Shown here: in pieces, positions 16,035 to 32,403 of the stretch | How positions within the stretch are numbered: the stretch's first letter is position 1 | Layout of the letters: every line of letters starts with the position of its first letter | Assembly (NCBI GenBank): GCA_003599255.1 | Contig: QZJF01000011.1 | Span: forward strand, 1-45,842 | Length of the DNA stretch: 45,842 bases | Direction of reading: 5' to 3' | Source of the DNA: a candidate division WWE3 bacterium | Lineage (GTDB): Bacteria > Patescibacteriota > WWE3 > UBA101185 > UBA10185 | Notes under the pieces: generated by a model | Told to the model about the DNA's origin: nothing | What the model saw: the letters and a program-made list of their open reading frames with translations, nothing else | The model's database searches: none | Position numbers and translations under genes: made by a program

Positions 16035-17186
16035 TTAAGGAATATCGGATTCGCCAGGCACTATGACATTAACGCCCGTGGAACCGGTGCCGGGTTGAAT
16101 GATCGTTGTCGGATCCGTACCGGCCGGAATGTAAATAGCTCCAGCTTCTGCAAGTGCGGCGGACCACATTTCCTGAACGAGCATATCAAGATACTCAGGA
16201 TGCAACGAATAAAGCTCAGCCAGCGCTGTGTCCTTTGCGATCAAGGAAAGCGCTTCTTGCTTTTTGACCTCGAAAATTGCGACAGCGATTTCGAAGTCCT
16301 TCTGAGCTTTCAGAAGCTCGTTGGCCTTTTCGGCTTCGATCACCACCTTCTGTGCCTCCAGAGCTTTACGCTCTAGCTCAGCGGTAATGGCGGCTTGACG
16401 CTGTTCTTCCTGGATCTTGCCCTGCTCCACGCGGATTTGAGCCTGCGTTTCAGCAAGTAGCCGACGACCGTTCTCTTCCGCTTTCAAGGTATCCTGACGT
16501 GCAAGATCCACCTGAAATTTGGAATTGGTGATCTGATCGAGGAGAGAGGTTACTTCGGGGCTCAGGATGATGTTCGGAACAATGATGTTCCTGACTTCGA
16601 TTCCGCCGTACTGAATGGCGAGTTTTGAAATCTCCTCATCGATGCATCCGCGAAGCTCGTCACGTGCTGATCCGACCACAGATTCTGCGAAGGTGCGGTC
16701 GCCTACACATACTTTCATTGCTTGCTGGGCCAATCCTTGCATCAATCCGGGCGTCTGAACAAATTTCTCGCCACGTTCTGATGTGCCGATTTCACCCACC
16801 AGTGCCTTATCGTTGGTATAGAATGTCCGGTATAGAGACCACCCATCCCGAATTACATCGACCTTGTCAAGCCCGGGGCGATATACATCCCCTTCGACAA
16901 CCAGGCCGATGCGCTGCTGATCCTTTGTCAACACTTCAGGATCTACCGCGTAGAAGCGCACACCCTCGATTTTTATATCGTGAATGTCTGCGAACCACGA
17001 CGGATCATTGTAGACACCAGGTCCAACAATATCGGTGATGACGGAGCGGCGCAGTTTGACAGCGATCTCGTTGTCTTTCACGCCATGAAGCATATAACCG
17101 AACACGGCTGTTCCGGCCGCCAGTAAAACCAGCAGTATCAGCACAGCCACAACCAGAGTTGCCCATCGACTATAACCACGATCCAT
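16035..17186 (-). CDS. SPFH/band-7 (stomatin-prohibitin) domain membrane protein
   Basis: A 383-residue protein with one N-terminal membrane span (about residues 8-32), an SPFH/band-7 domain (about 35-215, including GLMQGLAQQAMKVCVGDRT and YGGIEVRNIIVPNIILS), a long charged coiled coil (about 215-320, rich in A, E, K, Q) and a Thr/Gly-rich tail. SPFH proteins form large membrane rings that scaffold or protect other membrane proteins. I start at ATG 17184-17186 because GGAGG lies eight bases upstream; a GTG at 17234 would add 16 unsupported residues. One hand-counted 60-base line inside the gene has 58% GC and another 55%, against 40% in a line of secA. It has its own promoter and terminator and was probably acquired horizontally. 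Confidence 0.88.
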   Translation of the reverse strand: MDRGYSRWATLVVAVLILLVLLAAGTAVFGYMLHGVKDNEIAVKLRRSVITDIVGPGVYNDPSWFADIHDIKIEGVRFYAVDPEVLTKDQQRIGLVVEGDVYRPGLDKVDVIRDGWSLYRTFYTNDKALVGEIGTSERGEKFVQTPGLMQGLAQQAMKVCVGDRTFAESVVGSARDELRGCIDEEISKLAIQYGGIEVRNIIVPNIILSPEVTSLLDQITNSKFQVDLARQDTLKAEENGRRLLAETQAQIRVEQGKIQEEQRQAAITAELERKALEAQKVVIEAEKANELLKAQKDFEIAVAIFEVKKQEALSLIAKDTALAELYSLHPEYLDMLVQEMWSAALAEAGAIYIPAGTDPTTIIQPGTGSTGVNVIVPGESDIP

Positions 17187-17194
17187 TGCGATAT

Positions 17195-17199
17195 CCTCC
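17195..17199 (-). promoter_or_regulatory. Ribosome binding site that fixes the SPFH start
   Basis: GGAGG on the minus strand with eight bases to ATG 17186. It selects this start over the GTG at 17234. The same leader has a GCTTG-AAAAAA-CAAGC hairpin between the promoter and this site. Confidence 0.75.
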
Positions 17200-17248
17200 A
17201 ATCTGTTGTTTTGTGCGCTTGTTTTTTCAAGCACGGTTGATGCCTGAG

Positions 17249-27398: not shown

Positions 27399-28115
27399 AT
27401 GAGTTATTATCGCATTAAAGACTTAAATAAAGATGAAAAACCAAGAGAGAAAATACTGACTCTGGGTCCAAAGGCTTTAAGTGAAGAGGAACTATTAGCC
27501 TTAATAATTCGATCAGGAGGCAGCGACGAGTCGGCAATAGAACTATCAAGAAGAATAATTAAAGAATCCGGGGGATTAAAAAACCTCACGACCAAATCAA
27601 TCCAACAACTTATGAGTATAAAAAATATTAATTTGGCAAAGGCGGCATGTATTATTGCCGGTTTTGAATTGGGAATCAGGTCGGCGGATGAAAGAACTGA
27701 GAACCCAAGGGTAAAAAGACCTGAAGATGTGTTTCACTTAATAAAGGCTGAGTTATACGGAAAATCCAAGGAATATCTTTACTTAATATCGTTAAATACA
27801 CGTAATCGATTGATTTCAAAGGATATTATATCCATAGGCACTGTCAACGAAACGCTTATGTCCCCCAGAGAGATATTCAGGCAGGCGCTCTCAAGAAATG
27901 CAGTTTATATAGTACTCGCTCACAATCACCCATCTCAGGAAACTACACCAAGTGAAGAAGACATACTGGCTACAAAGAAAACACAACAAATAGGTTTTTT
28001 GCTGGGAATTCCTTTAATTGACCATTTAATTGTGTGCAACGATAAATTCACAAGTATGAAATCTCTCAACCAACTGGAAACCAAAAAATTATCGCAGAAA
28101 GGAGGTGAATTATGA
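27399..28115 (+). CDS. radC: RadC family JAMM/MPN protein
   Basis: The 238-residue protein has an N-terminal helix-hairpin-helix region (KDLNKDEKPREKILTLGPKA; LSEEELLALIIRSGG) and a C-terminal MPN domain with the JAMM metal motif AHNHPSQETTPSEED (usual HNHPSGxPxPS). Biochemical function of RadC is unsettled; the motif predicts a zinc hydrolase. It is divergent from the Xre gene and its TGA overlaps the ATG of the secreted protein gene (ATGA). A consensus Shine-Dalgarno for that next gene is inside its last codons. Confidence 0.95.
   Translation: MSYYRIKDLNKDEKPREKILTLGPKALSEEELLALIIRSGGSDESAIELSRRIIKESGGLKNLTTKSIQQLMSIKNINLAKAACIIAGFELGIRSADERTENPRVKRPEDVFHLIKAELYGKSKEYLYLISLNTRNRLISKDIISIGTVNETLMSPREIFRQALSRNAVYIVLAHNHPSQETTPSEEDILATKKTQQIGFLLGIPLIDHLIVCNDKFTSMKSLNQLETKKLSQKGGEL
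28098..28108 (+). promoter_or_regulatory. Full-consensus ribosome binding site inside the end of radC
   Basis: AAAGGAGGTGA, complementary to the whole anti-Shine-Dalgarno core, ends three bases before ATG 28112. It fixes the start of the secreted protein and contrasts with the weak sites elsewhere in the window. Confidence 0.85.
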
Positions 28116-28696
28116 AAGTAAAAAAACGAATAGTTACTTTTGCATCGTTTGCGCTACTTACCGGACTGCTTGTAGGCGTTGTACTTGCAGCTTTTGCAGA
28201 TAAAGGCAAGATCCTGGGTTCTACGTTTTCCGTTGGCAGCTCGGATTTAAAGTTCCTGACTAATTTATCAGGCGGAATAGACAGCGGGAATCTTTCCGAT
28301 GAACTGCAAGGCCCGGGCTTCGCCAATATAAGTTCTAACTGGACTATGGACTACACATTAAAAATGTTAAACAACGGCACGTCCCAGGTGCAGGTGACGT
28401 CAAATGCAAATTATCTCACTGCGAATGACCCGGACGATCTTAGAAACATAATTTTCGTAGAACCACTGGAATGGAATGACTCCAATGGGGATGGCTTGGT
28501 AGACACAGGCGAAGAAGGACAAAGTTTGGGCAGGAAGACACTTGTGAAGTGGAAAACCGAGGGGTATAACATCGGGGCACTTAACCAAGGAGAAGTTAAG
28601 GGTTTAATCCTAAGGTTCTCGACGGATACAGTAAGTGACACAAAACAGGGCAAATCAGGAGTTTTTGATTTCGAATTTGATTCGATAAGCCCCTAA
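28112..28696 (+). CDS. Secreted TasA/camelysin-like protein with EF-hand loop
   Basis: A 194-residue exported protein. The N-terminal signal (residues 1-27, basic then hydrophobic, ending VVLAAFADKG) and the GSTFSVGSSDLKF segment right after it match the layout of SipW-processed TasA/CalY proteins. Residues 123-134 (DSNGDGLVDTGE) satisfy every liganding position of an EF-hand/dockerin calcium loop. The rest is beta-rich with NNGTSQVQVTSNANY. It may be a surface or matrix protein whose fold is stabilised by calcium; this is inference. It is translationally coupled to radC (ATGA), has a consensus ribosome site and is followed by a strong terminator. SecA and LepB in the window could handle its export. 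Confidence 0.72.
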   Translation: MKVKKRIVTFASFALLTGLLVGVVLAAFADKGKILGSTFSVGSSDLKFLTNLSGGIDSGNLSDELQGPGFANISSNWTMDYTLKMLNNGTSQVQVTSNANYLTANDPDDLRNIIFVEPLEWNDSNGDGLVDTGEEGQSLGRKTLVKWKTEGYNIGALNQGEVKGLILRFSTDTVSDTKQGKSGVFDFEFDSISP

Positions 28697-28786: not shown

Positions 28787-31354
28787 ATGAGTTTCCTGCC
28801 AAAGTCACCGCATCTTTTTTTATATTGGTGGGCCGTAAAGGCTCCTAAACATATATTCACTGTTTTTAAAAGAATTCTGCTGATTGTAAATAATCATATT
28901 TCTTTCACAACAAATTTAAGACTTATATTCACTCCCCTTTTCGGAGACTATACCATCATAGGAAGATTCATCGGTTTTACCGTCAGGATTTTCGAGATTG
29001 TTTTTGGATCAATTTTTGTTGTTGCAGTAAGTATTGTCGCAGTAATAGCACCAGTAGCATGGTGGCTAGTACCGTTTGCCGGCTTTATTGAATATAAGAT
29101 CTACGTTTTAATGTTCATCGCCGGTGGATACCTTGTTTGGGCTTTTAAAACAAAGAATACACCGGAAAAAAGAATTAAAGACTGTAAAACGGAAGATTGC
29201 ATACGATCTTTCAGGCCGGGAACACAAGGTCTTTACGAAGATATTATGGACAATCATCATAAGGGAATAGAAAAGTTATTGAAATCACAACCTGTATTTT
29301 TCCTTCTAAGAAAATTGGAATTACAAAATGATGAATTTAAACAAAAACTGACGGGAGTACCCCATTTGGATACACACAATTTACTCTCATCCATTTATGA
29401 ATATGCAAAAACAACCGGCACGCGTTACATTGAAACAGAACATTTGTTTGTAGGTCTCCTAAAAAATCTCCCAAATAGAGATATTTTTCTTTCAACATAC
29501 GGAACAAGAATTGAAATGGTTGAACGTGGAACATCCTGGTTGCTTGAAGAACGCGAAAAACTTGCAAAGATGTATATCTGGCAGGAAGACTTTGAAAGTT
29601 TATTCCTGGGCGGCACCGGAAAAGGAATGACAGGGAGAGTTACTCCTTTCCTGGATTCTATGAGTGAAGACTTCACCAGAATGGCAGTGCGGGGAGGATA
29701 TGAACGATTCACCATGTTGGAGAGATACATAAGAAAAATCGGGGAATTAATGAGCGGCAGTAATGAAAATATTCTGATCATAGGCCCTCCCGGTAGCGGT
29801 AAAACATCCTTAGTTCGCGGAATAGCTTACAAAATAATGCAAGGAATTGAGTTCAAGTCACTTTCAAACAAAAGGATTATAAGTCTACAACTTGCAGGGA
29901 TTTTATCAGGCACAAAGACCGCAGGTGAAATCGCCGAGAAATTAAAAGGTGCCTTGGCAGAAGCTAAAGGCTCCGGAGATATTGTGCTATTCATAGATGA
30001 AATTCATACACTTGTTACCGGCGGCGGTGATCAGAATCCGGAAGTCGCGACTATATATTCCTTACTTGAACCGGAACTCTCTTTAAACAAGATCCAGTTT
30101 ATAGGCGCTACCACGATCCAGAATTACAGAAAATACATCGAACCCAACGGTGCCTTTGCACGTTTATTCAATATCCTCGAAATAGAAGAAGCTACACGGG
30201 AAGAAACCATAAATATTTTAAAATATGTAATTCGCGAAGTGGAGAGGAGAAAGGGTGTAACTGTGACATATGCTGCCGTGGAAAGAACTCTGGATCTATC
30301 TAAGAAGCTAATTCATGACAGAGTACTTCCTGATAAAGCAATCTTAATCATTGATAGAGCAGCCACATATGCGGCAGGAAATACGAAATATTTGGATACA
30401 AAGGCAGTTGAACACGTGGTAGCGGACATCACTCATGTGCCTTCACAAATGATTTCGGAAGAAGAATCCTCCAAACTCTTAAACATTGAGGCAGAAATGA
30501 AACAGATGGTAATAGGTCAGGATCACGCCATAAAACAGGTAGCGGCAGCTTTAAAAAGGGCACGGGCCGGCATACGTAATGAAAATAAACCCATTGCGAG
30601 TTTTCTCTTTGTCGGTACAACAGGAGTTGGAAAAACCCAAACTTCCAAAGCATTGGCAAAATCTTACTTCGGGGACGCAAAAAACATGATACGGCTTGAC
30701 ATGAGCGAGTATCAGCAACTCGATAGTATGTCCCGTTTGTTGGGGTCCCCCGACGGTAAATCAAGAGGGGTATTAACTGAAGCAGTAAGAACCAAGCCTT
30801 TTGCACTACTCCTTTTGGATGAAATTGAAAAGGCACATCCCAATATATTGCTGACATTTCTACAAGTTTTAGATGAAGGAAGGTTGACCGATTCCACAGG
30901 ATTGGAAATTAATTTTACAAACACACTTATCATAGCAACCAGCAATGTAGGAACCAGGAAAATTCAGGAAATATTTGCAAAAAATGGAAATATAGATGAA
31001 ATGCAGGAATCGGCAATGAGAGAAGTCAGATCGCACTTCGCACCAGAATTCCTAAACAGATTTTCCGGAATAATAGTGTTCAACCCATTAACTAAAGAAA
31101 ACGTCAGGGATATCACAATATTACTACTCCAGAACGTCCAGAAATCGGCTGATGCAAAAGGTATCAAAATTGCATTTAAGCCCGAAGTTATTGAGGAACT
31201 GATAAAGAGGGGTTATAACCCCGAATGGGGAGCACGGCCTCTTTCACGGGTGATCGAGGATACCGTGGAATCATATCTCGCAGTAAAGATGCTTACCAAA
31301 GAATTCAAAATGGGGGATGACATTGAGTTGGGATCAGAAGTGTTTGAAGATTAA
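28787..31354 (+). CDS. Membrane-anchored Clp-type AAA+ ATPase with altered pore loops
   Basis: An 855-residue protein with two or more N-terminal membrane spans (about 60-120), a Clp-N-like segment (about 195-260, [18 protein letters not shown]) and two AAA+ modules. Module 1: Walker A GPPGSGKT (333-340), Walker B FIDEIH (402-407). Module 2: Walker A GTTGVGKT (610-617), Walker B LLLLDEIE (674-681) and sensor 1 IATSN. There is no ClpB/ClpC middle-domain coiled coil. The D1 pore loop reads GTKTAGE instead of AKYRGE, and in D2 [15 protein letters not shown] replaces the usual segment with GYVGY, losing its tyrosines. No [ILV]GF ClpP-binding loop is seen after sensor 1. It is probably a membrane remodelling or unfolding ATPase of unknown substrate. 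It has no clear ribosome site; prfB follows. Confidence 0.88.
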
Positions 31355-31392: not shown

Positions 31393-32403
31393 ATGCAAAA
31401 TATTGAAGAATACAGAGAAAGATTAAATAACCTGAAAAAGGCGCTGTTTATAGACGAAAAACGGGAAAAAATCGTTCAATTAAAGGAACGGCTAAATGAT
31501 GAAAAGACGTGGCAAGATTGGGAAGAAGGTCAGAAAATCTCAAAAGATCTAGCTACTTTGCAAAAAGATATCGAAGATTACGAAATGCTTGAAATGATGC
31601 TGGATGATGATGACCCTGAACAATTTGAAATCGAATTCAGGATCCTGGAATTGAAAACGTTTTTATCAGGTAAACACGATATCGGTCATGCCATTATGTC
31701 AATCCATTCCGGGCAGGGCGGAACTGAAGCTATGGACTGGACTGAGATGCTATATCGCATGTATATAAGATATGCCGAAAGAAAAAAATGGGGGGTTGAA
31801 GAAATTCACAGAGTTCCCGGAGATGAAGCGGGATTGAAAAGTATAACTTTCGAAGTTTCAGGACCCTACGCTTACGGCTTCCTAAAAAAAGAATCCGGTG
31901 TGCATAGATTGGTCAGGCAATCCCCATTCAATGCCGACAGCCTGAGACAAACATCATTTGCGCTTGTCGAAGTCACCCCAATTATCGATGATGATGTTGA
32001 GATTGAGATTAAGGAGGACGAGCTTGAGTGGGAATTTTATAGAGCAGGCGGACATGGCGGGCAGAATGTAAACAAAGTATCCACAGCCGTCAGATTAAAA
32101 CACCTACCCACCGGAATAATTGTAGAGTGCCAGGAAGAAAGGTATCAGGGCAAGAATAGAGAAAAAGCGTTGAAACTTTTAAGATCCAAACTTTATGCAT
32201 CTAAATCTGAAGAATTGGAGAAAGAGAAAAAAGATCTAAAGGGATCCTATCAGACACCGGGTTGGGGAAATCAGATAAGAAATTACGTACTCCATCCCTA
32301 CAAATTAGTTAAGGATCTTAGAACCAATGTGGAGAATACAAACCCGGAAAAGGTTCTGGACGGGGATATAGATATGTTTGTAGATGCAGAGATCAGAGTC
32401 TAA
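31393..32403 (+). CDS. prfB: Peptide chain release factor 2
   Basis: RF2 releases peptides at UAA and UGA. The 336-residue protein has the codon-recognition tripeptide SPF ([15 protein letters not shown]) and the catalytic GGQ in [20 protein letters not shown]. The reading frame is continuous from ATG 31393, so the programmed +1 frameshift common near codon 25 of prfB genes is absent; that region reads [12 protein letters not shown] without an in-frame stop. Its presence is evidence that UGA is a stop codon here. It follows the Clp-like gene by 38 bases and its end overlaps the convergent small membrane protein gene by 11 bases. Confidence 0.97.

Follow-up and report, generated by a model that had tools for sequence, protein, structure and literature searches.

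A predicted membrane-anchored Clp ATPase family of Patescibacteria, largely without pore-loop tyrosines, and its small membrane partner, separate or fused

The gene at 28787-31354 of the window (the whole stretch of DNA analysed, 45,842 nucleotides from a candidate division WWE3 bacterium of the Patescibacteriota) encodes a protein that by sequence belongs to the two-ring Clp/Hsp100 ATPases, with predicted membrane spans and a predicted ClpC-like N-domain; its closest relatives are also from WWE3. We consider it somewhat probable (about 55%) that it is a membrane-tethered, double-ring remodeller of the Clp/Hsp100 type that works independently of ClpP, lacks the aromatic grip in both rings and acts through a membrane partner. 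We found no description of a membrane-anchored patescibacterial Clp in the open-access literature, and the family to which the protein belongs, in which a small membrane protein accompanies the ATPase or is fused with it, is apparently undescribed.

Domain layout and the pore loops

The reading frame is complete and its coordinates are exact. Its features are as follows.

28787..31354, + strand: reading frame of the membrane Clp-like ATPase, 855 aa, ATG start; the orthologue L001 has the same start position
28808..29086, + strand: N-terminal membrane domain, by profile match a homologue of the separate small membrane protein encoded directly 5' of the Clp-like gene in other Patescibacteria
28997..29122, + strand: two predicted transmembrane spans, residues 71-89 and 94-112 (Kyte-Doolittle)
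29165..29608, + strand: predicted ClpC-like N-domain, residues 127-274 (Pfam, AlphaFold, Foldseek)
29783..29809, + strand: D1 Walker motif, 10 letters not shown (alignment)
29909..29929, + strand: D1 pore loop 1, reading GTKTAGE where G-[AT]-KYRGE is canonical; non-aromatic (alignment)
29984..30001, + strand: D1 Walker B, VLFIDE (alignment)
30161..30166, + strand: D1 Arg-finger position, Arg459 kept and the second Arg replaced by Leu460 (alignment)
30614..30637, + strand: D2 Walker A, GTTGVGKT (alignment)
30743..30769, + strand: D2 pore loop 1, GSPDGKSRG, non-aromatic and shortened by four residues relative to the canonical GAPPGYVGYEEGG (alignment)
30806..30823, + strand: D2 Walker B, LLLLDE (alignment)
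30938..31045, + strand: segment 3' of D2 sensor 1, without the [ILV]GF ClpP-docking loop (alignment, motif scan)
31058..31060, + strand: D2 Arg finger, Arg758, present in all 69 family members compared (alignment)
31229..31237, + strand: D2 sensor 2, GAR (sequence)

Pfam recognises two AAA+ modules and a Clp D2-small domain (PF00004, PF07724 and PF10431, all above cut-off), and the best PDB matches are ClpB and ClpC, with E about 1e-120. The NCBIfam scores are far under the equivalog cut-offs of ClpB, ClpA and others (510 bits versus 1232 for ClpB), and the protein is therefore a Clp/Hsp100 protein of none of the named kinds. No insert of the length of the ClpB middle (M) domain was found between D1 and D2 in the alignment, where the D1 match runs to residue 527 and the D2 match starts at residue 540.

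The N-terminal membrane spans and Clp-N-like segment of the original prediction are both supported. Two 19-residue windows, residues 71-89 and 94-112, exceed a Kyte-Doolittle value of 1.6, and the spans predicted from this hydropathy are long helices of low confidence in the full-length AlphaFold model (mean pLDDT 53.5, from an alignment of four sequences), a model that is unusable for the D1 and D2 pores. The Clp-N-like segment is weak by sequence (18.5 bits for PF02861, versus a cut-off of 20.7), but residues 127-274 are predicted by AlphaFold with a mean pLDDT of 89.7, and the top Foldseek matches in the PDB are ClpC N-domains (probability 1.00, TM 0.53-0.59, E about 0.04). The predicted fold supports a Clp-N-like segment without proving homology.

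In ClpB, ClpC and ClpA, tyrosines in the pore loops grip the substrate; the [ILV]GF loop is the element that docks ClpP. Using E. coli ClpB and E. coli ClpA as reference sequences, we found that the window protein has none of these. In D1, the alignment of GTKTAGE with the GAKYRGE of E. coli ClpB is gap-free, placing Thr at Tyr251 and Ala at Arg252, and there is no aromatic nearby; we thus reject the idea that this tyrosine is shifted rather than lost. In D2, the alignment with GAPPGYVGYEEGGYLTE has a four-column gap over the Y653 stretch; written out, GSPDG----KSRG lies against GAPPGYVGYEEGG, such that the GYVGY tyrosines are gone by a deletion of four residues and here, too, a shift is rejected. 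Similarly, no [ILVM]GF was found between sensor 1 and the Arg-finger motif. The original prediction had read all three losses from the sequence (KYRGE to KTAGE in D1, the four-residue D2 shortening that removes the GYVGY aromatics, and no [ILV]GF after sensor 1), and alignment with ClpA, ClpB and homologues from candidate phyla radiation bacteria establishes that the tyrosine losses are real. Both Walker A/B sets are intact, as it had also claimed for D1 and D2; what it overlooked among the D1 motor residues is that the second Arg finger is gone (ERRF to ARLF).

Conservation in WWE3 and across Patescibacteria

The loss of the D1 tyrosine, the D2 deletion and the lack of an IGF loop are common to all 15 proteins of a WWE3 set made up of the window protein and 14 others that are 48-74% identical to it, and no aromatic residue occurs anywhere in either pore loop in any of the 15. 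In 13 of these proteins Ser or Thr stands at the D1 tyrosine position, a conserved small residue and not a product of random decay. All 15 retain the Walker B Glu and the first Arg finger of D1, with Leu in place of the second Arg. Because all 15 agree, the losses are due neither to chance nor to sequencing error, and a sequencing or frameshift artefact is rejected. Between the window gene and L001, pN is 0.17 and pS is 0.83, with synonymous sites saturated; the Clp-like gene is under strong purifying selection. Pseudogene decay is rejected on the basis of this selection and the intact frames.

We compared 69 membrane-type proteins from Patescibacteria (including the window protein), sampled from the best matches to the window protein and thus biased toward the membrane family, with a control set of 33 patescibacterial Clps assigned as soluble partly by their lack of a membrane stretch. 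A strongly hydrophobic N-terminal stretch is found in 68 of the 69 membrane-type members. None of them has an aromatic at the D1 position or an IGF loop, and only four have an aromatic at the D2 position, although some aromatic is present inside the D2 loop in 18. All 69 retain the Walker B Glu and the Arg finger of D2, whereas the D1 Walker B Glu is kept in 32 and lost in 37, and the D1 Arg fingers erode. In the soluble set, the D2 tyrosine is found in 33/33, the D1 Walker B Glu in 32/33 and the IGF loop in 17/33, and the D1 pore position is His, Tyr or Phe with one exception. Since only 17 of the 33 soluble proteins have an IGF loop and their D1 position is variable, loss of the IGF loop alone is common and the D1 position tolerates change. 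Indeed, ClpB is without an IGF loop, and the absence of this loop alone is ordinary. Loss of the D2 tyrosine, by contrast, is peculiar to the membrane family within this sample of 69 and 33 proteins, and the gripless pore is not absolute outside WWE3, given the aromatics at the D2 position (4/69) and in the D2 loop (18/69).

In a tree built on D1 and D2, from which the pore loops and the IGF region were excluded, the membrane members form one side of a branch with support of 98/95, or 100/100 without the long-branched L006, and by this measure the Clp-like membrane proteins are a single clade. Soluble, IGF-less proteins of the kind of L066 and L078 branch beside this clade, and at one locus (L142; G122 C9) the L066 gene lies a few kb from a membrane form. 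Some members (L039, L043, L056, L070, L071 and L079) have a zinc-finger-like N-terminus, CxxC(x)G...CxxCxG, which recalls the cysteine-rich repeats of DnaJ; six of the 69 fit this simple pattern, mostly those with a separate membrane partner.

A search of the host genome for clpP and for a canonical Clp ATPase, as suggested with the original prediction, found clpP on contig C6 and two further Clp ATPases (699 aa on contig C4, 764 aa on contig C3), each with GYVGY and an IGF loop. In the soluble host Clp L006 (C3:66842-68713), the Walker B and the Arg fingers of D1 are lost while D2, GYVGY and IGF remain; to judge from these motifs it is a half-dead ClpP-type ATPase. In a group of short, soluble, IGF-bearing Clps from WWE3 and close relatives (L005, L084-L091), which are probable ClpP-docking ATPases, the D1 loop has His for Tyr (SHRG/GHRG).

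A small membrane partner, separate or fused

In 27 of 40 neighbourhoods of Clp-like genes, a gene for a membrane protein of 107-154 aa lies immediately 5' on the same strand. A profile of these 27 separate partners, which all come from outside WWE3, aligns with the window protein over residues 10-100 (E 1.1e-19); it also matches the N-termini of the other fused members and no soluble Clp, and its search of the host genome gave a single match (E 2e-19). By this profile, residues 10-100 are a fused copy of the small membrane protein. The original prediction saw the membrane spans in the N-terminal region, but it overlooked that this region, over about the first 100 residues, is a membrane domain in its own right, fused from a widespread partner.

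The partner domain is present in 142 of 240 Patescibacteria genomes and is single-copy in all 142. In 118 of the 119 testable genomes, which are the partner-bearing genomes whose Clp-like gene was among the matches listed, it either precedes the Clp-like gene on the same strand or is fused with it; in the one exception the Clp match is at a contig end. The partner is fused (in a frame of >600 aa) in 37 genomes and separate in 105, and at least three changes between the fused and split states are needed on the tree. This adjacency, the single copy and the repeated fusion constitute strong evidence that partner and Clp-like ATPase act together; the linked partner could be an anchor only. The partner domain has no Pfam or NCBIfam match, and we found no description of it in the open-access literature.

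The genes on either side of the ATPase gene in the window are as follows.

28112..28696, + strand: protein of 194 aa with a hydrophobic segment at its N-terminus and without a Pfam match; found upstream in nearly all of the WWE3 loci examined
31393..32403, + strand: prfB, release factor 2 (named from sequence); downstream neighbour in most WWE3 loci and in several more distant relatives

The 194 aa protein is probably secreted or anchored. We judge that these two neighbours reflect synteny and not function, with prfB conserved somewhat beyond WWE3. Elsewhere in the window, a Band 7/SPFH-like membrane protein (16035-17234; 23.1 bits for PF01145, just below the cut-off of 23.6) adjoins secA.

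Proposed mode of action and relation to known systems

In ClpB, the D2 residue Tyr653 is essential for disaggregation, while the Y251A variant keeps partial activity (PMC6593972). Since ClpB needs Tyr653 and does not strictly need the D1 tyrosine, the D2 deletion carries most of the weight. The original prediction took the tyrosine losses as its basis, and this holds for D2; it holds less well for the D1 tyrosine, whose loss ClpB partly tolerates, and for the missing IGF loop, which is ordinary. A Clp ring without both tyrosines is unlikely to be a strong threading motor, a ring without an IGF loop is unlikely to feed ClpP, and the conserved ATPase sites argue for real work. The protein thus probably works without the canonical threading grip, and conservation of the ATPase residues across a large family is consistent with an enzyme that is active but works in another way. 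Torsins are Clp relatives that act at membranes; their pore loops likewise lack aromatics, and threading is not considered their way of working (PMC4999309, PMC5425593). From the losses, the conserved ATPase sites and the likeness to torsins, we infer that motion of the ring is transmitted via the N-domain and the membrane partner. In the topology that we envisage, a hexamer would form under the membrane, and ATP cycles in D2, aided by D1 in WWE3, would move the ClpC-like N-domain and the attached partner. The force would reach membrane proteins, as the candidate substrates, or the membrane domain itself, and may serve in pulling apart, inserting or remodelling, with no processive threading into a protease. 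The earlier proposal, that the enzyme may remodel proteins at the membrane by a different mechanism and without a protease, is partly supported, by the loss of grip and docking, the membrane anchoring, the conserved ATPase residues and the presence in the same genome of ClpP and IGF-bearing Clp ATPases, while enzyme activity itself is something that we infer.

The protein might instead still be a threading unfoldase anchored in the membrane, in which non-aromatic loops (small hydroxyl residues in D1 and a PDG-x-x-[KR]G-like loop in D2) hold the polypeptide less tightly, in a way suited to loosely folded or membrane-extracted chains. The two-ring Clp architecture, the substrate-type N-domain and the intact ATPase sites would suit such a role, some relatives keep an aromatic in the D2 loop, and p97, whose D1 has no aromatic, translocates using D2 (PMC5543420). 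Other pore features, such as backbone contacts, charged secondary loops and conserved small or basic loop residues, could still move a polypeptide weakly. However, both rings are without an aromatic in all 15 WWE3 proteins, and the D2 tyrosine is essential for disaggregation by ClpB; we thus regard threading as unlikely, although it merits serious weight. It is more doubtful still that the protein serves mainly as a structural scaffold or regulator, binding ATP but doing little mechanical work, as a pseudo-motor heading to loss of activity. Such a fate is suggested by the loss of the D1 Walker B Glu in 37/69, by the eroding D1 Arg fingers and by the same D1 decay in the soluble paralogue L006, but all 69 have the catalytic Glu and the Arg finger in D2, the WWE3 proteins keep the D1 Glu and first Arg in 15/15, and purifying selection is strong. 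Finally, a membrane-anchored Clp protease subunit that docks ClpP by other means has in its favor that ClpP is encoded in the genome, but it is highly improbable, given that 0/69 members have an IGF loop while both other host Clp ATPases have one, and that clpP was not seen among the neighbour families common to at least four of the 40 loci.

Beyond the remodeller that we favour, it is quite possible that Patescibacteria have a dedicated two-part membrane machine, in which a small membrane protein and a Clp-derived double-ring ATPase would exert force on the membrane or on membrane proteins with neither a gripping pore nor a protease, in functional parallel to torsins. The pair is a conserved patescibacterial membrane system. 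That bacteria with such small gene sets carry it in over half of the genomes sampled suggests for it a basic function at the cell envelope. How Clp-type AAA+ proteins work without pore-loop aromatics has been asked mainly for torsins, and a bacterial family that comes in many natural variants, has an identifiable membrane partner and shows repeated fusion offers a genetic and biochemical handle on that question.

The window protein resembles ClpC, ClpA and ClpE in its two AAA+ modules, D2-small domain, predicted ClpC-like N-domain and lack of the long ClpB middle domain, but differs from them in having neither IGF loop nor pore tyrosines and in its N-terminal membrane domain. ClpB and Hsp104, which also work without ClpP, are its closest sequence match in the PDB and NCBIfam, but the window protein lacks their middle domain and the equivalents of Tyr251 and Tyr653, scores 510 versus 1232 bits and is membrane-anchored. 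Like p97/Cdc48, it has a non-aromatic D1 pore loop (PMC5543420), although p97 keeps its D2 aromatics and belongs to another AAA+ clade. NorQ-NorD, of the MoxR AAA+ proteins, is likewise an AAA+ ring that works via a dedicated partner, by a proposed twisting mechanism (PMC13036017), but it is from an unrelated clade, with a VWA partner and a single ring. The torsins, such as TorsinA with LAP1 or LULL1, are similarly Clp-type, sited at membranes, without aromatic pore loops and provided with a membrane partner; the resemblance is in the way of working only, because torsins have one AAA+ domain, no Arg finger and a place in the eukaryotic ER, whereas the window protein has two AAA+ domains and the D2 Arg758.
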